Shown: one piece after another, positions 8,726 through 56,297 of the stretch
How the letters are laid out: the number at the start of each line of letters is the position of its first letter
Position numbering within the stretch: the first letter of the stretch is position 1
NCBI RefSeq assembly: GCF_030052815.1
Contig: NC_079495.1
Span: 43,715,651-43,779,650 of the forward strand
Direction: 5' to 3'
DNA from: Hevea brasiliensis
Taxonomy: Eukaryota; Streptophyta; Magnoliopsida; Malpighiales; Euphorbiaceae
DNA length: 64,000 bases
The notes under the pieces: model-generated
Told to the model about the DNA's origin: nothing
Databases searched by the model: none
What the model saw: the letters and a program-made list of their open reading frames with translations, nothing else
Program-made: the position numbers and the translations under genes

Positions 8726-11098
8726 ATACATCAACCACATATGCAGTCAGTATGGCTAAAAAGCCATGAAAACACATAATCGGGCACAAAAACCATGAGT
8801 GCGAGCATAAAGTCATGAATACAGGCATAAAGCCTTTCGCAATATTGCTAAAATAATACCCTATTGACATGCCAATCTATCCAATCTGACACACATGTCT
8901 AGGCAATACATAGGCACATAGTACCATTAAATGTTCATAAATTTCATTATTTCATTATAGGTTCTAATTATAATTTCTAGCATTTTAATCTTTTTCATAA
9001 TAGAAACATAAATCTCTAAGTCTAATATTTACATAATTTATGCATTCATCGTAATTTATATATTCATTATGTTATCCATAATTATCACAATTCAAAACAA
9101 TGGTTTTCATGCACCATTGTACTCAAAATACTTTTTCTTGTCCTTTCTCCAATAATGGGAACTAAAGTCTTATTTATACATTCATTTATTCATTGCCCTA
9201 TTTATATAAATTATTATTCATATTCCAAGTAGTCCATGAATATTTCATGGATTTCAAATTTAGCTAAATTTTCCTTAAATCCTAGTGTCACTCAAATTGA
9301 AAATTTAAATCAACTATTTACATTATCTATATCTTAACCATTACAATAGCTTTCTAATTTATTATACTCTTTCCTATATCATTGGGCTCACTTAACTTCA
9401 CCATTCACCATTTTACCTACCACGTCCTATATTAACAACTACAATGGTTTTATAGTTTGTTTTTCTACTTCACATAATTTAGTGGATACTATTCATTTGA
9501 CCATTTCTATTCAAAGGTTGACTTTTTGATTCATAATAGATTTGTTAAGAAGTTCACCAATATACCACATTTTATATTTTATTTTTATTGGCTTTGATTT
9601 TCAATACCATTTCAAAGCTTATTTTATATCATTCAAAATTTTCAGATTTCATACCTTAAGTTTACTGTTCCATTGGTCTAAGCTACAGTGAGAATTTGGC
9701 AAACTTTTCTTCATCAAAGTTGTTCCTTTATGTGTCTTCTTTACTTTCTTTTTTTGAATCACTCCATTTGGAGTTTTCTAGCTCAAGTTATGGCCATTTT
9801 ACCATAACTGGCCGGATTCACCTGTATCTAGAATTTCTGGGCAATCCTGATTCCGCCAGATTTGGTATCTTGACTTTGGTGGACAATTCCATTAAGTTCT
9901 GGTCAAAATTTAGAATTATGTTCTTCATGAAAGTTGTTCTAAATTGTCTAATCTTTCCATTGATATAAAATTTAGGTCATTTGAACATTTGGACATTTCT
10001 ACACTGAGTTATGACCATTTGAACAAATACTGTTCATTTGGTCAATTTCCAGGACCAGCAGGTTGGTTACCCGGATTTGGTCAATTTTTAGGGTATTCTA
10101 AGTTTATTTTCTAGGCAAGGTTTCTTCATCAAAGTTGTGTCATTATGTGTCTAGTTTCACCTCCGATTGGCCTTACACCAAATTTGGAGTTACACAAATC
10201 AAATTAGGACTGCCCAAACACACTGGACTCAAGGTCCAGAAATTCTATCACAATTAGGCAGCATACCATTTCAATTCCAATGCCACAATGGTCCCTAATT
10301 TAAGGTCAAAATTCATCAAATGGTCACTAATTGACCATTAGAACTTAAATTAAACATCGAACCATTAAATCCTCAATTAAATCTCAAAACCCTAACACTA
10401 ACAATCCATCATTTCATCTAACATACACAAATCAACATCTAACTCTAACATAATTATCAAACATCATTCCCAAGAAATTTAATTCAATCAAATCAACAAG
10501 TCTCAACCTTCCCCCATGGCTGTCGAAAATTAGAATATTCCTAACATGCATATTTTCTTCAAATTTTCTCCATTTTCTAACTTAACTCAAAGTTCAAATA
10601 AAAAATATAAAGAAAGAAGTAAGAAATTTAGCACTAACCTTGAAGTGGCACTTCTTGGACTTGTATAAACCTTAGAATTTCTACTTCTTGGGGCTGCCTA
10701 GAGTTGGCTTATGATGTGGGGATGAATTTTTGTGAAAAGATATTAAGATTTTATGATGGAATTCAAGGAGAAATCAAGCTCAATTTGAATAAAAATGGAG
10801 GAAGAAGGTGTGTGAAGGATGCCGACCATGGAGAATAATGAGGAAGATGACACTTTCTTTTTATTTATTGGTCTTATTTATTGTCTCCCTTATCCCTTAA
10901 TAAAACTTGTTAATTTCCCATAGGTTGATTAATTTTCAATGATGTCATTTTGACATCATATATGCTTATGTCATAAATTAATTTTCATTTCTTTCATTTC
11001 TTTTCTTTTTCTACTCATTTTTAATTTAAGTTTTTAGCAATATTTATTCACATTTTATGTCATAATAATTATTTATTTAACTGAACAAGTTGGTCAAA

Positions 11099-11374
11099 TG
11101 TAACGATCGGACTCCAACCACTAGAGAAATTGTCCGCTTTGGCCATAAGCCTCACAGTTTTGTCCCAAAGGTGGAATGGAGAACTTCCCAGGAGGTCACC
11201 CATCCTAGGATTTCTCTCAAGCGAGTACGCTTAATTCTGGAGTTCTTCCAGCTCTCCAGGCCATTCCACCAAAAGGCGCCTCTAGTGATTAGTTCCCCCA
11301 TTTTATATATCATTACTTTTTGAACCCAAGACCATCTCCGTGCTTTGCCGATGTGGGATTTGCCTAAGGGACCT
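11099..11374 (-). repeat. Cas-A 3' LTR
   Basis: On + it begins TGTAACGATCGGACTCC and ends near AAGGGACC. It contains the 5S-like block (about 11182-11246) and a minus-strand TATATAAAA box near 11303-11312. Confidence 0.85.
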
Positions 11375-11461
11375 TTCTCCCCCTCTTTCGAGACTCAGCG
11401 TCCTCGCTGAGGTTTGCCTCACCATCGCCCAAGAGGACACGCAAGTGGCTCTGATACCAAT

Positions 11462-11737
11462 TGTAACGATCGGACTCCAACCACTAGAGGAATTGTCCGC
11501 TTTGGCCATAAGCCTCACGGTTTTGTCCCATAGGTGGAATGGAGAACTTCCCAGGAGGTCACCCACCCTAGGATTTCTCTCAAGCAAGCACGCTTAACCC
11601 TGGAGTTCTTCTAACTCTCCAGGCCATTCCACCAAAAGGCGCCTCTAGTGATTAGTTTTCCCATTTTATATATCATTACTTCTTGAACCCAAGACCATCT
11701 CCGTGCTTTGTCGATGTGGGATTTGCTTAAGGGACCA
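11462..11737 (-). repeat. Cas-A 5' LTR
   Basis: This is the second copy of the 275-bp LTR, with a few substitutions relative to 11099-11374. The 5S-like block is at about 11545-11609. On the minus strand its start is TGGTCCCTTAAG. Confidence 0.85.
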
Positions 11738-12222
11738 ATTGTAACACCCTCATTGTAACCAGTTCGTACATTCTACTTGTCACACCTTATCCCTTGTAAG
11801 GCATGACATGTTCCCGTAGCATGCCTAATGAATCACCGAACTCCACCTACCGATAACCCATTAGTTATGCTACAAAGGATTTTAAAACAAACCATAGCTT
11901 TTTATCTTATCAATTCTTTTGCGGAAAACTATATGAGAATAGTTAAAATTCCATGCAAACATTCATTGGAAATAATGATAGACTAAATATTGCAAAAGTT
12001 ACATTTTCATAAGTCTCAAAGTAAAATACAAAATAATTACAAACTCAAAATGTGATAGCAATGCAATGTTTTTAAATACAAACTGCTCAATGTCTGTACA
12101 TCCATGCATATAGGTACAAAATACATCAAAAGGAAATTACAGGGGTATGACTACAATATATACCCACAAACAATACCAAAATGCTACTTCCAAGTCTCTC
12201 ACTCGGCAGCCTTCTCCTTTCC

Positions 12223-12269
12223 CTTACCTGCGACAGCATAAAGAAGCTATTGCTGAGTATATCACTCAG
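12223..12269 (-). other. LTR hairpin H1 and splice-donor-like site in TK-c LTR
   Basis: CTGAGT and ACTCAG (12253-12269) form a 6-bp stem. On the minus strand it is followed by GTCGCAG|GTAAG at 12223-12233, an excellent match to a plant 5' splice site. Confidence 0.6.
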
Positions 12270-14591
12270 TGGTGCACAACTAATAACTTTAAAACTTAAA
12301 GTAAAACATAATTTATCAAAGCATAATAAATCACATTTTTCTTAAGCATGAAAACTTCACAATAGTTCTAAGTTCATAAGAGCCATTTATTGGAATATCA
12401 TTTCAAATGAGAAATCACACTTCATAAATCACAAATCACACACAGTTCAGGCCATGACACAAAATTTCACGATCAGTGCCGTGTTGTACACCAGGACAAA
12501 GCAATCTCAACCTCACTAACCGTTATTAATGAGGGAAGGGCTAGCTAGCTAATGAGTACTCATATAGTCTTACCCCACTAACCATTATTAATGGGAGACA
12601 TAATCAATATCAATTATAAAACCCTAAGTAGCCATTACTACTGGGGAGTTCCGAAGGGACTGTCATGCTAACTGTGGTTTCAAAACAACTTTCAAGAGTT
12701 TCTAAATCAATAATCACGTTTGCAAAACAATAGCATATTCAAATCATCATAAAATCCATAAAAGGGGTGGCGACACACAAATTCCTCAAATACAAGAGAA
12801 AAACATACCTCATTCAAAATAAACTCATTTCAAATCAAACTCATTCAAATAAACTTATTCAAATTAATTTACGAAGCTAAAACAAAGAAAAATGTTAGTT
12901 GTGCACAAACCTTCAATACTCTCCTTTATTGTTACCTACTTCTCCTTGTCCGTTCCAACTTCTTTTTCTACTGAAAATACACAAATAGAATACCTCAATA
13001 CCAATCTCAATTGCTGCCAAGAACTCATTATATACATGTCTAATGCATCCCAAGTTAGCTTTGAAAATTTTAGAATATTTTGGTTTTGGGACAGCTTGGT
13101 GCCCCAATCTTTGAACCCAATTTTTACCTAGTTTCGATCATAATTTGGTGAGATGTTCTTCATGAAAATTGTTCATTTAGGTCTTAACTTTATTTTCCTT
13201 TTTGAATCGCCTAATTCGGAGCTGTGTAGCTCAAGTTATGCCAAAAACATCATTACTGTTCACGTCACTGTTCATGCTGCAGATTTTGTTCTGGTAGATT
13301 TATTGATCCAACTTTGTTCAGCAATTTGACCAAGTTAAGTCCATAATTTGGTCTAATGTTCTTCATATGAAATATTCTACTATGTCTTAGGTTTCCATCG
13401 GTTTAAGAATCGCCTAAATCGGAGTTTTCTAGAGAGAGTTATAGCCTTGCAAATTTACTGTTCATTTGGTCAATTTTAGGTGCCCAGATTCTGGCAGATT
13501 CGGTGACCCGACTTCTTTTCACAATTTGATTGAGTTAAGTTCATAATTTAACCTAACATTCTTCATATGAAATATTCTACTATGTCTTAGGTTTCCATCG
13601 GTTTAAGAATTGGCTAAATCGGAGTTTTCTAGAGAGAGTTATAGCCTTGCAAAGTTTACTATTTATTTGGCAATTCTGCAGTTTTGCAGATTCAGTAACT
13701 CAACTTTGCTCAATAATTTGATTGGGTTAATGGCAGAATTTGGATTTGTGTTCTGCATGAAAGTTTTAGGTCTATATCTCATCTAACTACTGGTAAAATT
13801 TCAGGTCATTTTGACCTGCCTAGCTCGAGTTATGACCCAAACACGATTACTGTTCATGTGTACTGTTCATACTGCAATTTTTCAAGTTTGGTCAGTTTGT
13901 TCACTAGGTTTTGGTCACTTTTTGGGCATGCTTCCTAAATGAAAATTGTGTCATTTAGTGCCTATTTTCAGTCCCAATTGGTCCCATACCAATTGTACTT
14001 ATAAAATTTCATTTTTGGTCCCTCAAAGTTGACTTTTGGTCATGCTTCATACCCAATCCGAATTTGGCTTTGATTTAAATACTTCTCACACACTTAATAA
14101 GGTCACAAATGGCCATTTCTTTCCTTAAACTATGTCAAAGACATCATTTAGCACTTCTTCACATTTTTTGTCTCTAAACCCTAATGTTCAAAACCCTAAT
14201 TTTTCTCCCATTTGGCCAAAACCCTAGTTTAGGTTCCATATATGTTTTCTTTCATTTTCTTATGAAATTTCATCATAAATTAACTTCATTCAAAGCTTAT
14301 ACAACTAATCTAAAATGAAAAGAAAATTACCTCTTGTTGATTTCTTTCCAACTTCACTTTTCTTCTAATTCTTGTTCTCCTTGCTTTTAATCTCTCAATC
14401 AAAGATTTCTTTGATGTTTTCTTTTAGTGGGCTATGGAATTTATGAAGGGAATTTAAGGGAATTAAAACTTGGGAGGGGAAATCAATGAGGGGAAGAAGT
14501 GGAAGAAGAAGAGAAAAAGAGAGAGAGAGAAAGAGAGAGGAGATGGTGGTGGCCTCTTATGAAAAAAAGAAATGAAGAAGACATTTGTCTT

Positions 14592-14593
<2 letters not shown>

Positions 14594-14666
<73 letters not shown>
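14594..14666. repeat. (TA)n microsatellite in TK-c LTR
   Basis: This is a run of about 35 TA dinucleotides with a purine tract (GAGAGA) 50-80 bp upstream. The equivalent place in the TK-e LTR (about 43120) has no such run, so it expanded within this copy. ORFs made of Ile-Tyr repeats here are artefacts. Confidence 0.95.
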
Positions 14667-14674
<8 letters not shown>

Positions 14675-15199
14675 TTATCCCCAAAATTAGCTTATTAAAA
14701 TTATAAATTTTAATTGTGCCATAAGGATAATTAAACTTAAATTTTTATTCCTTTTTTTTTTTACTTAATTTTTCCTTTTAATTAAATAATTAAATTTAAC
14801 TATCAAAAGCCCATAAGTCTTTCATTTTAATTTTGTCATAATGGACATGAAAGTTTAAGTTTTCATTTCTTAAATTTTCCCTTACATATTTTTACTTGAA
14901 TTTTTCTTCAATTTTTACCCCATGATTCAATTCATTAATTTTATTTAATTTAATTGACATTTTGGTCAAAAGTCAACTCTTGAGGTGAATTGACCAAAAT
15001 GCCCCTCATCGGGTCATAATCCTTCTTTTTATAATACCCGATGAGTCCTTAGTTTTTTTTTTTTTTTGTTCACTAGAATTTTTATTGTGTCTATCTCAAT
15101 TAATTTCTATTTATTTTTGGTCCTCAAGGTGTCTTCGTATAGTTTTAGTCACGGACCAAAAATGGTACTATTCATAACTCGAAGGTTCGGGGTGTTACA

Positions 15200-15213
15200 A
15201 TTCTCCCCTCCTT
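15200..15213 (-). other. TK-c polypurine tract
   Basis: On minus, AAGGAGGGGAGAAT lies directly before TGTAACACC of the 3' LTR. It overlaps the last codons of pol. Confidence 0.85.
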
Positions 15214-15219
15214 AAAAAT

Positions 15220-15239
15220 AAATTTCGTCCTCGAAATTT
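15220..15239 (-). other. TK-c PPT-proximal 20-bp hairpin
   Basis: AAATTTCG-TCCT-CGAAATTT is a perfect 8-bp stem, seven bases upstream of the PPT, encoding K-F-R-G-R-N. The same 20 bases occur at 56316-56335 in TK-f. Confidence 0.8.
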
Positions 15240-15747
15240 ACCTGGTCTCGCACGAATAGTCAGGTGCTGTCTCCTCATGTCCTCCTCATGCTCCCATGTA
15301 GCCTCTTGGCCTGAATGATGGTTCCACAGCACTTTGACTAGAGGTATATGTTTGTTCCTCAGCTGCTTCACCTCATGTGCCAAGATCTTTATGGGCTCTT
15401 CATCATATGTCAGGTCTGGATTCACCTCAATCTCCTCTATTGGCAAAATGTGAGAGGGGTCTGATCTGTACCTCCTTAACATGGAGACATGGAAGACATT
15501 GTGAATCTTTTCTAACTCTGGAGGCAATGCAAGTCTATATGCCAATGGACCCACTCTTTCCAGAACCTCATACGGCCCAATGAAGCGAGGACTTAGTTTC
15601 CCCTTTCTACCAAACCTCATGATCCTCTTCCATGGGGAAACTTTCAGGAACACCTTGTCACCCACACTATACCGAATATCTCTTCTCTTTAGGTCAATGT
15701 AGGACTTCTGTCTATCCGTTGCAACTTTGAGTTTGTCTCTAATGAGC

Positions 15748-16625
15748 TTAACCTTTTCTTCTGTCTGCTGCACTAACTGGACCAATCAACTTCCTCTCGC
15801 CCACTTCATCCCAACACAAAGGAGTTCTACACTTCCTGCCGTAAAGGGCTTCGTATGGAGGCATTCCGATGCTTGAATGATAACTGTTGTTGTAGGCAAA
15901 TTCAATTAAAGGCAAGTGTGTGTCCCAACTCCCTTCAAACTCAATCACACAAACCCGAAGCATATCCTCCAAATTCTGAATGATCCTTTCAGACTAGCCG
16001 TCTGTCTGTGGATGGAATGCTGTACTAAAGTTCAATCTAGTCCCTAGGGCTCTTTGGAGACTACCCCAGAATCTAGAAGTGAACCTAGGATCTCTATCAG
16101 ACACAATAGACATTGGCACTCCATGCAACCTCACCACTTCGTCAATGTATAGTTTGGCCAATCTTTCCAGGTTGTAATCCATTTTCACTGGCAAAAAGTG
16201 TTCAGACTTGGTCAATCTATCAACAATAACCCAAACTGCATCATGATTCTTTTGTGTACGTGGAAGTCCTGTCACGAAATCCATAGTGATTCTTCCCATT
16301 TCCATTCGGGAATTGGCAATGGTTGTAGCAACCCTGCAGGCACTTGGTGTTCTGCCTTTACTTGCTGACAAGTTAGGCATTTGGCAACATATTCTGCAAT
16401 GTCTTTCTTCATTCCTCTCCACCAATAGTGCTCTTTCACACTTCTATACATTTTGGTTCCACCAGGGTGCATTGCAAAAGGTGAATCATGTGCTTCCTTT
16501 AAAATAGTCTGCCTCAGTTCAACATTCTCAGGAATGCACATTCTGCCCTTATATAACAACAAGCTCTCATCATTTACTGATAATTCTAGTTTCTTGCCAT
16601 CCCGAGCCTCTTCCATCAACTTCAC
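15748..16625 (-). pseudogene. TK-c integrase (zinc finger and DDE core), broken
   Basis: Frame 16272-16625 has the HHCC zinc region ([32 protein letters not shown]). Frame 15994-16425 has the core ([43 protein letters not shown]). Frame 15748-15972 has [13 protein letters not shown] and [13 protein letters not shown] residues ([13 protein letters not shown]). A frameshift near 16320, a TAG at 15994-15996 after HPQTDG where Gln is expected, and a frameshift near 15785 inactivate it. The two Asp are visible, and the third acidic residue would lie in the S-E-R segment just after the stop. Confidence 0.88.
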
Positions 16626-16662
16626 ATACTTATCATCCTTCGTAAATCGCTTTAATTTGTTC

Positions 16663-18447
16663 TCACAAGATTAGCTTCACTTGCCAAGTAGCTACCATCT
16701 GCCCATCTTCATTAATCTCCAAATTAGCATGCAATGCCCTTAATTCATGCACCATGGACAAAGGAGAAACCCTCAAACCAGCCATAGTCTTGCGACTTAA
16801 AGCATCAGCTACAACATTAGCTTTTCCAGGCTGATAGTCTATCAAACAATCATAATATTTTATCAGCTCTAACCATCTCCTTTGCCTCAAATTTAACTCC
16901 TTTTGTGTGCTCAAGTACTTCAAACTTTTATGATCTGTGTATATATAACATCTCTCCCCATACAAGTAATGTCTCCAGATCTTCAAGGCAAAGACAATGG
17001 CTGCTAGCTCCAAGTCATGTGTAGGATAATTCCTCTCATGCGGTTTAAGCTGGCGTGAAGCATAGGCAATGACGTTTCTATCTTGCATCAACACACAGCC
17101 TAATCCGTTATGAGAAGCATCACTGTATATGGTATACTCCTTACCCAAAATGGGCAAGGTTAAGACTGGAGCTTCAGTTAAATGCCTCTTTAACTCATCA
17201 AAACTTTCCTGGCATTGATCAGTCCACTTAAATTTTACATCCTTCCTAAGTAGCTTGGTCAGTGGAGATGCTAGTATGGAGAATCCTTTCACAAACCTTC
17301 GATAATACCCAGCTAAACCAAGGAAACTCCGAACTTCCGTGACATGTCTAGGTGGCTTCCAATTAAGAATGGCTTCTACTTTGCTAGGATCCACTTGGAT
17401 ACCCTCTGCAGATACAATATGCCCCAAAAATGAAATCTCCTTTAGCCAAAACTCACATTTCGACAGTTTGGCATACAACTGCTTCTCCCTCAAAGTGTGC
17501 AATACTATCCTTAAGTGCTTGTCGTGTTCCTCTGTATTCTTTGAGTACACCAAAATATCATCAATGAACACCACAACAAACTGGTCCAAATATGGCCTGA
17601 AGATAGTGTTCATTAGGCCCATAAAAGCAGCTGGAGCATTAGTCAACCCGAATGGCATTACCAAGAACTCATAGTGGCCATACCGAGTCCTAAAGGCAGT
17701 TTTAGGAATACTTTGCTCCTGCACCCTCAACTGGTAGTAGCCCGATCTCAAGTCAATTTTGGAGAATACAGTTGCATCCTTCAACTGGTCAAACAAATCA
17801 TCAATCCGTGGCAGAGGATATCTATTCTTTATGGTCACCTTATTCAACTGTCTGTAGTCTATGCATAGGCAGAGAGTACCATCCTTTTTCTTCACAAATA
17901 ATACTGGTGCTCCCCAAGGTGACACGCTAGGGCGGATGAAACCCTTATCTAACAATTCCTGCAATTGTACCTTCAGCTCTTTCAACTCAAAGAAAGCCAT
18001 CCTATAAGGAGTGATGGAGATTGGCTCCACACTGCATAGTCTCAATTTCAAATCGCACCTCTCTTCTCGGGGCAATCCGGTAATTCTTCCAAAAACATCC
18101 GTAAAATCCCATCTCAGAGGAATATCTTTAAGATCTGGACTCCCCACCTGAGTGTCTATCACATGAGCTAGATAAGCTTCACATCCCTTTCTAATCATCT
18201 TTCTAGCAAGTGCAGCTGAAATGATGTTGGATGGCAAACACTGTCTCTCCGCGTGTATCACTACATCTGCATACTCGGGAAGACCAAAAGTGACTGTCTT
18301 CAGTCTACAGTCAATCATGGCATGATGCCTGGCTAACCAATCCATGCCTAAGATGATATCATAATCTCGGAAGGGCATGTCAATTAAGTCTGACAGGAAT
18401 GTATGTCCTTGGATCACCAAAGGACAATCCTTATACAATTTGTTCAC
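16663..18447 (-). pseudogene. TK-c protease end, reverse transcriptase and RNase H (594 codons open)
   Basis: The frame starts in the protease C-terminus ([20 protein letters not shown]), passes the RT linker and then [47 protein letters not shown], and catalytic FIDD at + 17557-17568. The thumb [16 protein letters not shown] is followed by RNase H ([48 protein letters not shown]). It ends at a stop after QVKLIL, where TK-e continues into the integrase. The Met at its start is internal: upstream protease continues beyond a TAA. Around 18040 the sequence differs from TK-e by small indels ([21 protein letters not shown]), a short compensated shift. Confidence 0.92.
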
Positions 18448-18456
18448 CCTAACCTC

Positions 18457-18693
18457 TTATCCTAAAGGACTAGTCACTAGCACATCATAATCCAATTTCA
18501 CACAAGGAATAGCAATAGAGCATGCAATACTGGCACTAGCATAAGAATGTGTAGAACTAGGGTCAAACAACACATATACATCTCTATCAAAAATGGAGAA
18601 AGTACTAGCCACAACATCTGATGTCTCAGCTTCATCCCTCTGGCACATGGTGTACACCCTGACTGGTGCACCACTCTGCTCTGGTTGGCTCAC
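18457..18693 (-). pseudogene. TK-c protease N-terminal part
   Basis: The frame shows VRVYTMCQRDEAE then VYVLFDPSSTHSYASASIAC, the aspartic protease active-site region. The expected D-x-G triad reads D-P-S-S-T here, so the glycine is lost; TK-e has D-L-G-S-T. The TAA at 18457-18459 replaces a CAA present in TK-e, separating this part from the rest of pol. Confidence 0.82.
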
Positions 18694-18786
18694 TCTGCCC
18701 TGACTACCAGAAGTGTTACCTCTACCCTTGCCTCTGCCTCTACTAGTTGTCTGTTGTCCTCTAGAAGCAGAACCTTGAACAGATCC

Positions 18787-19857
18787 CTAAGTGGTAGTAG
18801 GCGGTCCAGATCTGCGGGCACTAGTGCAATCTCTAGCAAAATGCCCACTTCCACCACAGTTGTAACAGGCTCCTATGGCCTTATAACATACTCCTCCATG
18901 AGTCCTGCCACAAGTTTCACAAGCACGGGTAGGAAAGGAACCCCTAGATGTCTGCTGTCCGGATCTAGGTGGCCTCTGCCCTGAGAATCTTCCCTTACTA
19001 GATCCTCTGTTACTTGGTCCCGCAAAGCTCTTCCTCTTACCCGAATTGTTACTTGGAGTTTGACCTGTAGGCTTACTGCTTTTCTCTTTTTCAGTGATTA
19101 CCTTCTCAAATGCCCCTTCTAGTTCTATCCTTTCCAATTCAAGGGCCTGTGATATCAACCCAGAGAAGTTGTCATGTCGAAACCCAACCACTTGTAATCT
19201 CAAACTAGGCCTCAAACCGGCCTCAAACCATTTGCATCTGTCTCTACTGGTAGTGAGTAGGCTTCCAGCATAGTGGCTGAGGCGAGAAAAGTCTCTCTCA
19301 TACTCAGCTACAGTCTTGTTCCCTTGCTTCAAACTAAGAAACTCCTGTAGCTTCATATCCACAGAGGCATCAGGAACATACTTTTGTCTAAACTCCCTTA
19401 GAAAGTCATCCCATGTCAGCACTGACGGCTCAGCCAAACTGTGGGGAATGGTCTTCCACCACTCATATGTATCTCCATGCAGCAAGGAAATTGAATATTC
19501 AAACTTCAACTCATCTGTGCAGTGCAATTTCTTGAAGACCCTCTCCATCCGTTCTAACCATTGCTCAGCTTCCAATGGGTCCACTGTACCCTTGAACCCT
19601 GTTGCCCCATACTTCATTAACTTGTCATATTGTCTGGCTGGGGATGGTGGTTGCACTAGAGGTGCTTGCACAGGAGCTTGGACTGGTATATTGCCAACCA
19701 TTTGCTGAAATAGTGTAGCCATCTACTGAGCGAACTGAGCAGGAAACTGCATGGGTGGGATGGGTGCAGCCGATCCACTGGCATTCTGAGGAGCTGGGGC
19801 TTCCCCTTGTACCTCAGCTGCTACTGATTGCTCTACTGTGTGATCACCTTCTTCCAT
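18787..19857 (-). pseudogene. TK-c gag
   Basis: The likely start is the ATG at 19857-19855 (M-E-E-G-D), 170 bp from the PBS. An in-frame TAG lies just before Met-19722, after which 311 codons are open. These show the retrotransposon gag fold (EAEQWLERMERVFKKLHC, AYEWWKTI-like YEWWKTIPH, FLREFRQKYVP, VAEYERDFSRLS), a basic linker and two zinc motifs: CETCGRTHGGVC, and the CCHC knuckle CYNCGGSGHFARDC, which binds RNA for packaging. The frame stops at TAG 18787-18789 before a Gly/Ser/Arg-rich linker to protease. Confidence 0.9.
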
Positions 19858-20026
19858 ATTGAATCACAAGGAATTCTACTCCCTGAGCAACCAACACAAG
19901 GAGATTTCCTTCCATTAGTCCATATTTATGATGTAATGCACTATATGTATCAATAATGACAATTGAGCAGTTGTACTTATCAAAAATTTTCAAACATGCA
20001 ATTTCAAAACTTGTATAAAAACCAAA

Positions 20027-20038
20027 GCTCTGATACCA
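20027..20038 (-). other. TK-c primer binding site
   Basis: On minus, TGGTATCAGAGC is complementary to the 3' end of plant initiator tRNA-Met. It is eight bases (CTAAAACA on +) from where the missing 5' LTR should begin, the same spacing as in TK-e. Confidence 0.9.
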
Positions 20039-20046
20039 CTAAAACA

Positions 20047-20409
20047 ATTGGTATCAGAGCCGCTCGTGTGTCCTCTTGGGCGATGGTGGGGCAAACCTCA
20101 GTGAGGACGCTGAGTCCCGAAAGGGGGGGAGAAAGGTCCCTTAGGCAAATCCCACATCGGCAAAGCACGGAGATGGTCTTGGGTTCAAAAAGTAATGATA
20201 TATAAAATGGGGGAACTAATCACTGGAGGCGCCTTTTGGTGGAATGGCCTGGAGAGTTGGAAGAACTCCAGGGTTAAGCGTGCTCGCTTGAGAGAAATCC
20301 TAGGATGGGTGACCTCCTGGGAAGTTCTCCATTCCACCTATTGGACAAAACCATGAGGCTTATGGCCAAAGCGGACAATTCCTCTAGTGGTTGGAGCCCG
20401 ATCGTTACA
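20047..20409 (+). mobile_element. Cas-C: Cassandra interior and 3' LTR without 5' LTR
   Basis: PBS TGGTATCAGAGC is at 20049-20060, the interior runs to about 20133 with a purine-rich GAAAGGGGGGGAGAAA, and the LTR is 20134-20409, ending GATCGTTACA. The sequence closely matches Cas-A. The 5S-like block is at about 20262-20324 (GGTTAAGCGTGCT, GATGGGTGACCTCCTGGGAA) and a TATATAAAA box is at 20199-20207. It starts at the first base after the expected 5' LTR, where it meets TK-c. It has no coding capacity. Confidence 0.88.
20262..20324 (+). other. 5S-rRNA-like block inside Cas-C LTR
   Basis: The segments AGAACTCC, GTTAAGCGTGCT and CTAGGATGGGTGACCTCCT match the conserved internal promoter half of plant 5S rRNA. 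The block lacks the 5' part of a 5S gene and sits in an LTR, so it is not a 5S gene; it is the diagnostic Cassandra domain, downstream of a TATA box. Confidence 0.85.
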
Positions 20410-23400
20410 CTACTATTCCGGTGACCGGTGTCAGTTTGAACAACTAAAATGTCTGGAACTATATTTAAACTAGAGTGAGGAGTTATAAAATAACCAAATA
20501 AGTGTAAGAAAAATTTAGGAAAAAATTTTAGAAATAAAATACAACCAAATTAAATAAGCCGGTGCCCTAGCGATGGGTAATCGAGTGGAAAGTTGCGATC
20601 CTCGCAGCTAAGAACCCTAAACCCAGGAGAAAATTCATGAAATAACTTTTAGGACTCCAGAGAAGAGTCATTGAGGTTTCTATAGCATTAAAATGTTAGT
20701 AGTATGCCCTAGAGCATATCATTTAGTATGTATCTTATGCATGTTTTATTAATAAAAGGTATTTTCACTTTTCCATTTACATAATATATTTACATGTAAT
20801 AGAAAAGGTCCATTGATATTTTGTTAGAAATTCTATTCTTAAGTTGTTAAGAATATGAGTGACAGTATTTCTAGCACAAAGTATCATAAATTAGTTTACA
20901 ATCGAGGATACTTCACACAGGACATGACTTATCTAGAAAGATTGTATTCATGTTTGTTCCCAATGTATTTATATGAGATGTAAATAATATGGAATGGTGA
21001 GTCTCATGCCATATAACAAACATGATAGGCACTTATGCATGATAAGTAGGCCGAACTAGTGACATTTATGACAAGCACATGGAGTTTACTCTTGTCAATG
21101 CATTGTCATAAATCATATTAATGCATATAATCTTTAGACCTAAGATAGCACAGTTATCTTGTATATAGGTGGTTTGAGTTTGATACTGTTTTCATACTTG
21201 TACTGTGTATGGGTATATGGGCATGTGTTGCCTCCTACTAGTTATATATGGAGGTAGGTGTTGATCAAGATGGAATCTGTTACCCTAAGTAAATAGGGCT
21301 AAAATCCTATGTTCATTTAATTGTTCTTGATGTTTCAAGTTCCTGGCCAGGACAGATAGATTTAATTAGAAAAGAGTTTCTGATGAGAAAATCTTTTAAT
21401 CAAGAACTGGAATTAAAAGAAAACATAATATTCATAGTAAATGGGGTTTGACATAAACCATGACTCCAGCTCAAATTGGGATTTTATAACAAAGAGATTC
21501 TAGTGCATGGTAACATATGATTATAGGTTCATTTAAGGTATACCTTATTACTAATTAGGTAGCTATAACATGTTATGCTAGGTATTAACCATAGTCTATG
21601 AGGTGCCTAAAATGATTTAGAGAAATCATTTATGGTAAGAAAGAGTTCTGATGATATTAAGAGTTGATATCATATCTCATTGCCAATTATTGATGAGCCT
21701 AGTGAGTCACACACATACACAAGTAATCTGTAACACCCTCCCAGTAGCAATTCCGTACATTCTATTGTTCCGGTGACCGGTGTCGGTCTGGACAACTAGA
21801 ACGTCCGGAAAAATATTTAAACTAAAGTGAGGAACCAAAATTAACTCAAATACTAATAAGAAAAATTTAGTAAAAATTTTAGAAATAAAATACAACCAAG
21901 TTAAACGAGCCTGTTCTAGTAGGGGTAACCCAGAGGGAAGTTGCGGTTCTCGCAACTAGGAGCCCTAGACCCGGGGGAAAAATTATAAAATAATTTTTGG
22001 GACTCCAGAGAAGGGTTATTGGGGTTCCCATGGCATTAGAATGCCAAGAAAATACTTAGAAAAATTTTTCAATCGGTACAGACAATTTTGACCCGTTAAG
22101 CCAAACGGAGAGCATTTTGGTCATTTCGCCTTCAGAGGTGATTTTTGGCCGACTTGTCCAGTTAAGTAAATAATTATTATGACACAAAATATGAATTAAT
22201 GTTGATGAAAAATTAATTTAAAGTTAGTAGAAAAGAAAAGAAAAAGCTAAATATGACATCATTAGGATGTCATTTAAAAACTTCTACCAATCAAAATTAA
22301 ACAACCCTTTAAACTAACCAATAAAAGAGACAAACCAAGACAAAAGAATTAAAAATGCAGCTGCCTTCTTCTTCTCCAATTCCAGCCGAAACTTTGCTTG
22401 CCCTAAACCTCCATTAATCCTTCAACCAAAGCTCAAGTTCTCTCCTTATTTCACCATAAATTTTCCTACTCCATTCACTAAAACTTATCCCCACATCACA
22501 AGGTAACTCTAGGCAGCCACAAAGAAGAGGAATTCTAGAGTTTTCACAAGCTCAATAAGTTGAGCAAAGAGGTTAGTGCTATACTTCCACTCTCACTCAT
22601 TTAATCTTTGTTAGAGCATCACTTTAAGTTAAGAAATTGTAAAAATTTGAAGTAAATTATATATGTTAGGGTATCTTCAATTTTCGGCAGCCCTAAGGAA
22701 GGATGAGTTTGATTGTTTTAATGGACTTAGAGTGAATTAGAGATCATGTTAAAGTGTATACATATATATATATACAAAGAATGAAAGAGTTAACCAAGGA
22801 AATTGTGAAAACCTTGAAATTGAGCTAGGGTTTAGGGGTGAAAATTTAACTTGGCTTATGAAATTGTTAAAGAACACTCTAATGGTCAATTAGTGACCAT
22901 TTGAGATAAGTTGACCATAAATTGGATTGAAATATAGCATGGCAAAGTGAATGAGTATGCTGCCCAATGAGTGCAACAGGGTGGCTGAGATTTCAATCCA
23001 CTTGGACTGCCATACCTTTGGCTGTGTTGGTCCAATTGGTGTTTGGCGAATTGGAAATGAAACTAGGCTTATAATGGCACATTTTTGCTGAAGAAACCAT
23101 GCCCAAAAGACCAAAGCAAGTGGACCAAAAGTTGGCCCCAATCCGGATACCCTACAACAGCACCTGCAGAAATGACCAAACTGTTCATTTGGCCATAACT
23201 CACTGTAGCTATGGTTAATTGACCTGAAATTTTTACAGCAACAAGTTAAGACATAGACAAACAACTTACATGAAGAAACCTACCTCAAATTATGACCAGA
23301 ACCTAACCCAAATGGCAGTCACAGTTACTGTTCATGGTACTATAGATTTGGTAACTCTGCAGTTTTGGCAATCCGGCCAGCTGTGGTTTTTGGACCATAT

Positions 23401-24156
23401 CTGGAGCTTCAAAACTCCAAATGGAGTGATTCAAAAAATGAAATTCAACTGGACAAAATAAGGAACAACTTTCATGTTTATCATTTCCTCAAATTCCCAC
23501 TGCAACAGGGCCCAATGGAATAGTAAAGTTGGGTCACAAAAACTGAAATTTCTGCCCTCTTAGATTTAAGTTGAGAAATGGTAATGGTGACCAATTCCAA
23601 TAAGTCTTAAATGCCAAATGTGGTATGTTGGGAGTGCCAAAGTCAATGTACATATTTTCTATCCAAAAGTCAACATTTTTGTTGACCAATGAGGTGAATA
23701 GTAACACCAAAACTTGAAATTCACAAATTGAAGAATTTAAAAGTTTCAAATGCCCTAGTATACCTAACAAGATTGGTTTGGATAGTTTGGCATGCCAATA
23801 GGGTTCGATTAGCGATCGCACATGGCAATATGCCATTACGTGATTTTATGGCTTTTAGCCATTCGACCTTGTATTGAGCTTTGGCCTTGTGCTCGATGTT
23901 ATCACGGCTTGTTGTTACATGCCTGCCGGGAGATGCATATGTGACCGATGGTGTGACGGCCCGAGGTACTTGATACCCAGTGCCAGTTTACCCGTTATCC
24001 AGTCCAGTCATCTAGGGTAGGTTACTTGGGCAACCAAATGAATGAAAGTGGACAAAGATAATGAAATAATGGATACACCAATACCAAACAAAGAAATCAT
24101 ACACATTCTATACATACTTATTTTCTGCTATTTTCTTTTATTATACTATTGCACCA

Positions 24157-24174
24157 CTAAGCATTATTGCTTAG
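24157..24174 (+). other. LTR hairpin H1 in S2
   Basis: CTAAGCA-TTAT-TGCTTAG is a perfect 7-bp stem, 672 bp from the LTR end. Confidence 0.65.
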
Positions 24175-24630
24175 CGCGTTGCTTTGCCATGCGTAGTGCG
24201 GAGATACAGATCGTGAGCCCGGTAGACCGCAGATGGTGAGTCTGTCGGCGATTCCGCGATGTCCGTGTCACCTCAACTTCTGCAGTGCATTGGTAGGACA
24301 CTAGGTGTCATTTTGATATTTTGTAGCTAATTTTTATTTTGTAGCTAATTTCTCATAGCTAATTTTGACAGTTTGAACTTATGTAATGTATTCTGATGTT
24401 CATGTAAATAATGAAAGTTATGGCTATGAATGCAAAATTTGAGCATTTATTTATTGTTTGTATATGAGAAATGGATGTTTGAGAAATGAAAAGGTTATTG
24501 AGAACTAAAATTGAAATGTTGTTGAGATCTTGATATTGAGATTTTGTTGATGAATTGAAGTTGGGATTGTTTGGAAATTATTTGGAAGTGTTTTTAACAG
24601 GTTTCGAAGAACTGTTTTCTCCATTTTTAG

Positions 24631-24645
24631 CCGGTACTCTGCCGG
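24631..24645 (+). other. LTR hairpin H2 in S2
   Basis: CCGGTA-CTC-TGCCGG forms a 6-bp stem with one T-G pair, after GAAGAACTGTTTTCTCC. Confidence 0.55.
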
Positions 24646-25350
24646 ATTTTCTTTAAAATTTTCGGAACCTCAAATAAATTATGATTTCAATAAATGACTT
24701 AAATGAGTTATCTTTCACAAATTATATTCAAAAGCATGATAAAAATTAATTAAGGTATAATAGAGTGTGCCGGTACACCGTGTGACATTGCTTACTCGGG
24801 TACACTGTTCACGGGTAAGGGGTGTCACATAATAACCAAGTTAAATGTGATTTAATTAATTAATTAAAGAGTTTAATTGATTAATTAAATAGGTTTGGTT
24901 TGTAATTAGATTGCAAAGTCCCTAGCATGGCTTGAAACCAAATCTAGGTTATTGGATGTATAGTATAAGTTAAATTTATATTTAAACACTAAATTTATAT
25001 TTAAAGTGTTTAAATATAAATTTAATTATGAGAAATTAATTAATAGATATTAATTAATTTATTTATATTTGATATAAATTGATTAGAAGAAGAAAAATAA
25101 TTATTTTGGATTGAGAACTCAAAATTAAGACACAGAGGTATTTTGGTCATTTCACAGGGTGACACGTGGCACCATGAGATGGTGACATATGGCACTACAC
25201 ATAAGCTTGCCAATTGTCTTTTAATCATGTAAGATGATCAAAGTCAAGATTAAATCTAAGTTTGACACTTGGCCCAATGTGATTGGGTCAATTAAACTAA
25301 GAGTAAATCAGAAAGTGACATGTGGCAAAGGTTTTAAATGATGACCTAGC

Positions 25351-41382: not shown

Positions 41383-41637
41383 TAGAATGCCAAGAAAAGG
41401 CTTAGAAAAATTTTTCGATCGGTACAAATGATTTTAGCTCAGTAAGCCAAACGGAGGACATTTTGGTCATTTCGTCTTCGGAGATGATTTTTAACTTACT
41501 TGTTCAGTTAAGTAAATAATTATTATGACATAAAATATGAATAAATATTACTAAAAATTAAATTGAAATTGAGTAGAAAAGAAAAGAAGAGAAAATGAGT
41601 TAAATTTGGAATTATTACCTCATGCTTATGTCATTAC

Positions 41638-42698
41638 TGTAACATCCTCCCTATACTTATCCTGTATGTTTTGTTGCTCCAGTGACCTAATATCAGTCCA
41701 AGCAAGTCAGGATATCTGAAACTACACTTCGGTGATAGTGAACAGACATATATTGATGAAATAAATAAAAAGAAAATACAAGAAAAATTAAAGAAAAATA
41801 AAAGAGAGAAAATAAAACTAAGTTAAACTTGCCGGTACCGTAGCGATGGGTGACCGCACCGGAAAGTTACGATGAAGGTAATTGCCTACTCCAGAACCGC
41901 GGAAAACCCTCGGAATTAAATTTTGGGACATAATTAAAGGTTTATTGAAATGTAATTGATACTAGAAATATCAAAGAAAAAATAATAAATTAGTATAAAG
42001 AAAAACGAAAAATCGAGAAACAGATAAAAAAATCAGTGTTACCGAAAAATCAGGAATACAACCCAAAGAAGGGCATTTTGGTCATTTGAAACCTAGAGTT
42101 GCCTTTTGACCTCAATGTGCATTAAAAATAAATGATATTACACTTTGAAAATGTCATAAAAATTTAATTGTAGTACATTATATGAATAGTGAAAGAAATG
42201 GGGCATAAAATCCAATTTATGAAACTTTAAATAATTAAACATTAAAATGGAACTTAGTGCTCCACTAACTTAAATCGTGGGACACCAATATAAGCCTTGG
42301 GACAGCAGAAACCACTTCATCTTCAACCTTCCACAAACCAGCCGAATTCCACCATGGAAGAACTCAATTGCCATACCTTGTTCCACCTCCATGCAAGCAT
42401 GTTCTAGCCATCCTTTCTCACTAGTGTCTTCATTAAAACTTATACATTCAACTTGAGGAAGTCATTAGCAGCAAGAAGAAATGGATTTAGTGAGTTTTTA
42501 GCAAGCTCCAAAAGAGGTAACTGTCCAAATCCCCTCCCTGGCTCTAGTAAACTTCATGTTTAGGTTGAGGTGAGTTGAATGGTGAAGAGAATGGAAGAAT
42601 TTATTGAGTTATGGAATTGTTCAATTTCGGCAACCATGAGAATCTATGTTGCTTGAGTTTTTCTTACTTCTAATGGATGGAAAATAATGTTGATTTAG
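41638..42698 (+). repeat. TK-d: Tekay-type LTR 5' portion
   Basis: It starts TGTAACATCCTCCC in the middle of TK-b and resembles S1 and S3 (GCGATGGGTGACCGCACCGG, CATTTTGGTCATTTG, TTAGTGCTCCACTAA). It is cut after 1061 bp by TK-e. Its remainder would lie right of the window. The left flank is ATTAC. Confidence 0.75.
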
Positions 42699-55757: not shown

Positions 55758-56297
55758 TTATTTGCATTATATTAATTTTTCTTTTCTTTTCTTTTCTACT
55801 AACTTTAAATTAATTTTTCATCAACATTAATTCATATTTTTTGTCATAATAATTATTTACTCAACTGGACAAGTCGGCCAAAAATCGCCTCTGAAGGCGA
55901 AATGACCAAAATGCCCTCCGTTTGGCTTAACGGGTCAAAATTGTCTGTACCGATTGAAAAATTTTTCTAAATATTTTCTTGGCATTCTAATGCCATAGGG
56001 ACCTCAATGACCCTTCTCTGGAGTCCCAAAAATTATTTTATGAATTTTCCCTGTCGAGGGCTCCTAGTTGCGAGAACCGCAACTTCCCTCTGGGTTACCC
56101 ATCGCTTGGGCACCGGCTCATTTAACTTGGTTGTATTTTATTTCTAAAATTTTTTCTAAATTTTTCTTATTAATATTTGAGTTAATTATGGTTCCTCACT
56201 TTAATTTAAATATTTTTCCAGACGTTCTAGCTGTCCGGACCAACACTGGTCACCGGAACAGTAGAATGTACAGAGTTACTACAGGGAGGGTGTTACA

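Follow-up and report, generated by a model that had tools for sequence, protein, structure and literature searches.

How can two retrotransposons of different families, each without its 5′ LTR, come to lie head to head inside a single target site duplication (TSD)? The question is raised by a composite at positions 11778-20409 of a 64,000-nucleotide stretch of the Hevea brasiliensis genome (hereafter the window), in which self-comparison and direct reading of the sequence revealed a Tekay-type gypsy element (TK) on the minus strand and a Cassandra TRIM on the plus strand, both lacking the 5′ LTR and touching at their primer binding site (PBS) ends. We consider it highly probable that this Cassandra family is a one-ended LTR retrotransposon, whose cDNA is first linked by end joining to a second cDNA, the pair then being inserted together by integrase. 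The finding appears to concern the usual insertion mode of Cassandra in the Hevea brasiliensis genome rather than a single accident, since the commoner joints in our sample fuse its complete left end to Tekay or Cassandra ends.

Two Elements Joined at Their PBS Ends

On its left side the composite starts with the TK 3′ LTR (11778-15199, minus strand; 3,422 bp; in the sense orientation TGTAACACCCCG...GGTGTGACA), whose U5 end faces outward, followed by the TK internal region (15200-20046, minus strand; 4,847 bp) with remnants of gag, protease, reverse transcriptase (RT), RNase H and integrase in several stop-separated pieces. The Cassandra half comprises an internal region with a PBS and a polypurine tract (20047-20134, plus strand) and a 3′ LTR (20135-20409, plus strand), which carries a 5S-like stretch at 20235-20342 and also has its U5 end, CGATCGTTACA, facing outward. 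An initial annotation had claimed that two elements without 5′ LTRs meet here at their LTR/internal borders, that their PBSs form an inverted pair, and that CTACT brackets the whole. All of these coordinates hold. The two copies of the PBS sequence TGGTATCAGAGC (20027-20038, minus strand, in TK; 20049-20060, plus strand, in Cassandra) are exact matches and, in a scan of the window, the only inverted pair of this sequence within 40 bp, and CTACT was read in the sequence and in the TSD comparison at 11773-11777 and 20410-20414. To this we add that the junction can be placed only to within 3 bp, because the reversed Tekay spacer TGTTTTAG and the Cassandra LTR both end in ACA, a microhomology (20044-20046) that can be assigned to either element. 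The 10 bp separating the PBSs correspond to the two spacers (8 + 2), and other splits fit as well. In the sense orientation the TK internal region starts with TGTTTTAG-TGGTATCAGAGC, identical to the start found in a second TK copy after its 5′ LTR (46068/46069), and the Cassandra half (20047-20409) begins with ATTGGTATCAGAGCC, like other Cassandra copies following their 5′ LTRs.

A genome search for further inverted PBS pairs, which had been suggested as a check, covered 1.88 Gb and found the strict pattern only twice outside the window (control, 0), showing that the architecture in the window is not due to chance. The inverted-PBS pattern gave no matches in viral contigs, and the three bacterial records that it gave in genome contigs were taken as chance. 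When the window junction was used as a query against the same genome, there was one other full-length match (301 bases, 83% identical), located within a second Tekay/Cassandra PBS-end composite of 7,312 bp at G000:C2:57278324-57285635, with AGCAA at both sides. There a TK-like element on the minus strand (TK3) is joined by its PBS to a Cassandra without a 5′ LTR (GCTCTGATACCAC/TATCAGAGCC). The C2 composite is an independent event, because its partner copy, joint, target and TSD all differ from those in the window. Its occurrence, with AGCAA as TSD, supports the original proposal of two cDNAs without 5′ LTRs that became linked PBS to PBS and then integrated through their two 3′ LTR ends. One further PBS:PBS joint was found by the strict pattern at C14:45447703 (control, 0); the head-to-head PBS pair at G000:C14:45447703-45447754 has 30 bp between its members.

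Within the TK internal region, the pieces free of stop codons gave matches above the Pfam cut-offs for gag, zinc knuckle, retroviral protease, RT, RNase H, integrase zinc-binding and SH3 domains; the integrase core fell below its cut-off (21.4 bits vs. 32.6), and the chromodomain match was weak (Chromo, 20.3 bits vs. a cut-off of 25.1). TK is of the gypsy type in that integrase follows RT/RNase H and that the PBS is an initiator-tRNA PBS, TGGTATCAGAGC presumably being a fit to this tRNA. TK is putatively assigned to the Tekay clade, a name taken over from the initial annotation. Like the Tekay/Del chromoviruses it has a gag and a protease as well as RT, RNase H and integrase, to which the weak chromodomain match may be added, but it differs from them in being fused to Cassandra at its own U5-plus-spacer, U3 or PBS end. 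Exact LTR/PBS borders of the TK type number 12,715 in the genome. A long run of TA dinucleotides is present within the TK LTR, at about 14595-14667 of the window. The PBS is given as a methionine PBS in PMC10853983.

Target Site and an Older Composite in the Window

The composite lies in a region of densely nested LTR elements. The target was the start of an LTR of family X (TGTAACACCCTC...; 11740-11777, plus strand), which continues to the right of the composite at 20410-20695 (plus strand) and again at 41383-41598; the Tekay/Cassandra composite and the Y element (20696-41382) both lie inside this LTR. As the initial annotation had stated, the target site is present once in related LTRs: of the three X starts compared, those at 21729 and 31090 read CTATT and the one at 56297 (minus strand) reads CTACT, whereas another X-like start, at 41638, is too diverged at this site for comparison. 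A solo X LTR (21729-24829) within the Y LTR, flanked by TAATC and TAATA, is an ordinary insertion with a near-exact TSD of its own.

The window holds two composites, the Tekay/Cassandra unit and an older Cassandra(-)/X(+) pair joined left end to left end. In the older one, the left Cassandra (11099-11736, minus strand) consists of an LTR (11462-11736), an internal region (11374-11461) and a further LTR (11099-11373). Its U5 end abuts the TSD TCAAA (11094-11098), and a 3-bp U3:U3 joint, AAT (11737-11739), connects its left end with that of X(+). We followed the X(+) partner as far as 41598 and place its probable far end beyond the window, where an X-like right end, GGGGCGTCATA, stops at the second TCAAA (G000:C3:43789810-43789814) and the interrupted host X(-) resumes.

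The Unequal Ends of Cassandra

The Cassandra LTR contains the published box A and box C motifs, GGTTAAGCGTGC and AGGATGGGTGACC, recognized by eye and 18 nt apart, and gave an Rfam 5S_rRNA match of 26 bits, under the gathering score of 38; at gathering scores, an Rfam scan returned no matches. The PBS TGGTATCAGAGC adjoins the 5′ LTR, as is the case in Cassandra. When the termini were compared with the TG...CA of LTRs, the right (U5) end, CGTTACA, was found to have the CA, and the left end was found to be without TG: complete Cassandra LTRs in our survey begin with GGTCCC, mostly preceded by AAA. Exact copies of this left start, AAAGGTCCC..., number 1,392 genome-wide, 3′ LTRs included. None of the 15 complete LTR-internal-LTR units tested (14 loci; complete units of the arrays at L028, L042 and L047 were left out) had an adjacent 5-bp TSD of its own, the best adjacent match being 3/5. 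At L033, a 5/5 match lies 3 bp upstream of the left end, and mismatched pairs gave 5/5 in 2 of 210 cases.

A related TRIM occurs at L018, L019 and L028. It begins with TGTAACACCCTAGGC and has a canonical start, TGTAACACCCTAGGCAAATCCC; its internal region is 83-88% like that of Cassandra, and no clear 5S part is evident by eye in its LTR. It may be the parent form of Cassandra.

One TSD Around Whole Composites

We surveyed 34 loci, comprising 31 other Cassandra matches, the left Cassandra of the window and the two PBS:PBS composites, the sample consisting of the best matches from a search that scored 40 of 3,363 candidates. The left end of Cassandra is fused to a Tekay or X right end with unprocessed spacer at L020, L021, L025, L031 and L035, to a Tekay or X left end at C14 and in the left Cassandra of the window, to a shortened Tekay LTR at L027, and to the related TRIM at L018. 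Cassandra lies head to head with another Cassandra at L026, L030, L034, L039, L042 and others, and its PBS end follows a foreign LTR end at L028, L032 and L037.

If a composite is inserted whole, one TSD should be common to its outer ends. We tested this prediction by comparing the outer ends at 25 of the 34 loci, leaving out L022, L023, L024, L032, L033, L040, L043, L044 and L046. At 24 loci the TSDs matched, 19 of them at 5/5 and five at 4/5; among 552 mismatched pairings used as a control, 5/5 was obtained once and 4/5 in 13 cases. At the 25th locus, L035, no TSD match was found at LTR starts within the fetched stretch. For L020, L021, L025, L027 and L031, the TSD was read first at the Cassandra flank, and its second copy was then located beside the distant end of the Tekay partner. 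The far copy adjoins the start of the neighboring LTR at L021, L025 and L027; at L020 and L031 it was found next to an LTR start that is separated from the Cassandra left end by about 10.6 and 9.4 kb, respectively, the intervening stretch having been read only in part, and a polypurine tract precedes the adjoining LTR. Outer ends were assigned on a second look at L036, L037 and L045; at L037 the outer end chosen first was mismatched, and a match, TTGTT, was obtained where the inverted TK LTR next to it ends.

The Cassandra left end never adjoins the target at the 24 loci with matching TSDs; the partner supplies the other end, and one TSD encloses the whole. The partners were Tekay-type at 13 of these loci, Cassandra only at eight, the related TRIM at three and the Y Copia at none, as annotated with a library made from the window and the C2 locus only, with which other partner families could be missed.

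Joints Across the Genome

Genome-wide, joints were counted as sequence patterns, TSDs being compared only at the surveyed loci. A Tekay right end with its spacer and a Cassandra left end lie no more than 10 bases apart at 74 places on many contigs (control, 0), with 30 distinct joint sequences among them. At 20 of the 74 the exact end of the spacer is followed by AAA, so that the two elements are fused exact end to exact end; a few joints retain PBS bases (for example, TGGTAT), and filler bases are present in some. Cassandra:Cassandra left-end joints were found at eight places, L039 among them, all of them different (control, 0), and PBS:PBS joints under a permissive pattern at eight places, including the window and C2 (control, 0). 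Among the first 100 listed of the 1,392 left starts, on C1, opposite-strand neighbors within 5 kb had their U5 ends outward in seven cases and inward in two.

Proposed Mechanism and Alternatives

We propose an order of events that is read from integrated copies rather than from live cDNA. Reverse transcription would yield a linear Cassandra cDNA with a right end that serves as a normal integrase substrate and a left end, AAAGGTCCC, that has no TG, apparently stems from cleavage inside the polypurine tract and would go unused by integrase. The left end would then be joined to another cDNA with a second integrase-competent end, be it Tekay-type, Cassandra or the related TRIM, and integrase would insert the entire composite, producing the single 5-bp duplication around it. 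If plus-strand transfer failed, the PBS end of Cassandra may be joined instead, and the window composite would represent this PBS:PBS version. Since a 3′ LTR acquires its U5 only once first-strand transfer has taken place, both halves of the window composite had gone through that step, but not through plus-strand transfer.

The joints, termini, TSDs and recurrence of the composites were observed directly. That Cassandra cDNAs were joined to partner cDNAs before integration is suggested by the bases kept at the joints, namely the spacer TGTTTTAG, partial PBS and polypurine AAA, which lie outside the integrated element, and the Cassandra left end is probably not an integrase substrate because it is without TG/CA. 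The likeliest joining step would be end joining by the host before integration, needing little microhomology or none, with RT jumping as the main alternative. Where a single TSD is flanked by Tekay on one side and Cassandra on the other, the same integration complex probably accepted the two ends, which suggests that Tekay-type machinery does the integration work, which makes the question of the helper testable; the frequent role of Tekay as partner could reflect its abundance alone (12,715 borders). With modest confidence, we lean toward the view that an abundant family has lost one of its integrase ends and become an obligate co-integrant, its cDNAs being welded before insertion to those of Tekay or to one another, whereby two U5 ends would together play the part of terminal inverted repeats, with Tekay-type chromovirus machinery as its helper in this plant.

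Rather than being ligated, cDNAs could be linked in the particle by RT jumping end to end from one to another, a possibility to which we give some, though limited, weight. The 2-3 bp shared at two PBS:PBS joints (ACA in the window, and TA at C2 if its TK3 copy has the spacer observed for TK3) are compatible with such jumping, and template-switch complexes with TSDs have been published for grasses (PMC1950507). However, in the modal joint (20/74) both ends are complete and unprocessed, and some other joints contain filler bases, as in end joining, although jumping and ligation are hard to tell apart from integrated DNA. It also seems rather unlikely that some composites replicate as units, in which case a chimeric copy would be transcribed and reverse transcribed and a few joints would be copied. 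The single joint sequence AAA, which makes up 20 of the 74 Tekay:Cassandra joints, would fit this explanation, and some of these joints may be copies of one composite. However, the 74 joints include 30 distinct ones, the eight Cassandra:Cassandra joints all differ, the partner families vary (TK, TK3, X), and recurring exact-end joints are also what independent ligation would be expected to give.

Separate ordinary insertions, with deletions or inversions later bringing the pieces together, are very improbable: a dense nest of LTR elements would offer an opportunity for them, but they leave unexplained both the identical outer 5-bp duplications in 19 of 24 loci and the position of the joints exactly at cDNA ends. 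To an assembly artefact we attach next to no probability. The sequence is repetitive, but Tekay:Cassandra joints occur on many contigs and the TSDs match; for the window junction itself, an assembly join appears unlikely because the junction shares only 3 bp, a TSD is present at both outer ends, and a second locus is alike. Two nested insertions were rejected as the origin of the window unit. An inversion between inverted Cassandra copies was rejected by reasoning, as it would move the PBS:PBS joint rather than remove it and would break the TSD, and autointegration was rejected as the source of the window joint, which is without an LTR terminus.

Relation to Known Systems

Joining of unintegrated cDNA ends, with PBS or polypurine bases kept, occurs in retroviral 2-LTR circles and in aberrant integrations of U3-mutant viruses. 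The joining there is a dead end or the property of a laboratory mutant, whereas here it is apparently the regular route of insertion for the abundant Cassandra. The template-switching complexes of Sabot and Schulman resemble the Hevea composites in that two elements form one unit with a single 5-bp TSD (PMC1950507), and one TSD around the whole is what we found as well. In those complexes, however, a third LTR is shared between related elements on one strand, whereas the Hevea composites unite different families, often head to head, with no LTR shared and the joint at cDNA ends; an arrangement of three LTRs, the outer ones near-identical, with two cores on one strand was not found in them.

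In the accounts of Cassandra TRIMs (PMC7215508, PMC10853983), these elements are like the Hevea units in having a 5S-like LTR, a spacing of 18 nt between box A and box C, the PBS TGGTATCAGAGC, no coding region described and tandem arrays, while the Hevea units differ in lacking the left TG, in having no adjacent TSDs (0/15) and in being inserted as joined composites. Tandem Cassandra arrays were described by Kalendar and colleagues, who suggested recombination or template switching (PMC7215508), and reshuffling and polymerisation were described in general terms by Maiwald and colleagues (PMC10853983). Head-to-head composites or left-end loss are reported neither in PMC1950507 nor in the accessible part of PMC7215508, and a literature search, with subscription papers mostly outside it, found no earlier report of such joined one-ended Cassandra insertions. 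No autonomous family is indicated as the mobiliser of Cassandra, according to Kojima (2024; PMC10886601), and putative helpers are named for some other TRIMs by Gao and colleagues (PMC4717578).

Our results suggest that a retroelement may survive without one of its LTR ends, provided that it obtains a partner through end joining. They also suggest that composite insertions would be missed by annotation demanding paired LTRs together with a TSD.

Other Features of the Surveyed Loci

Some of the surveyed loci have additional features. L033 and L038, on different contigs, have the same 25-base sequence, AATCGAGAAATGGTCCAAATTTTTA, at the Cassandra joint. At L037:3345, a Cassandra U5 end is joined within an inverted TK LTR, the outcome expected if one cDNA had autointegrated into another, and TTGTT brackets the whole. 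L040 consists of an X(+) LTR, a Cassandra internal-LTR-internal stretch and an X(-) LTR, so that two X elements in inverted orientation enclose the Cassandra piece. At L047:1682-1969, about 290 bp of AT-rich DNA lie between two outward-facing Cassandra arrays, the bracket being TTTGT.
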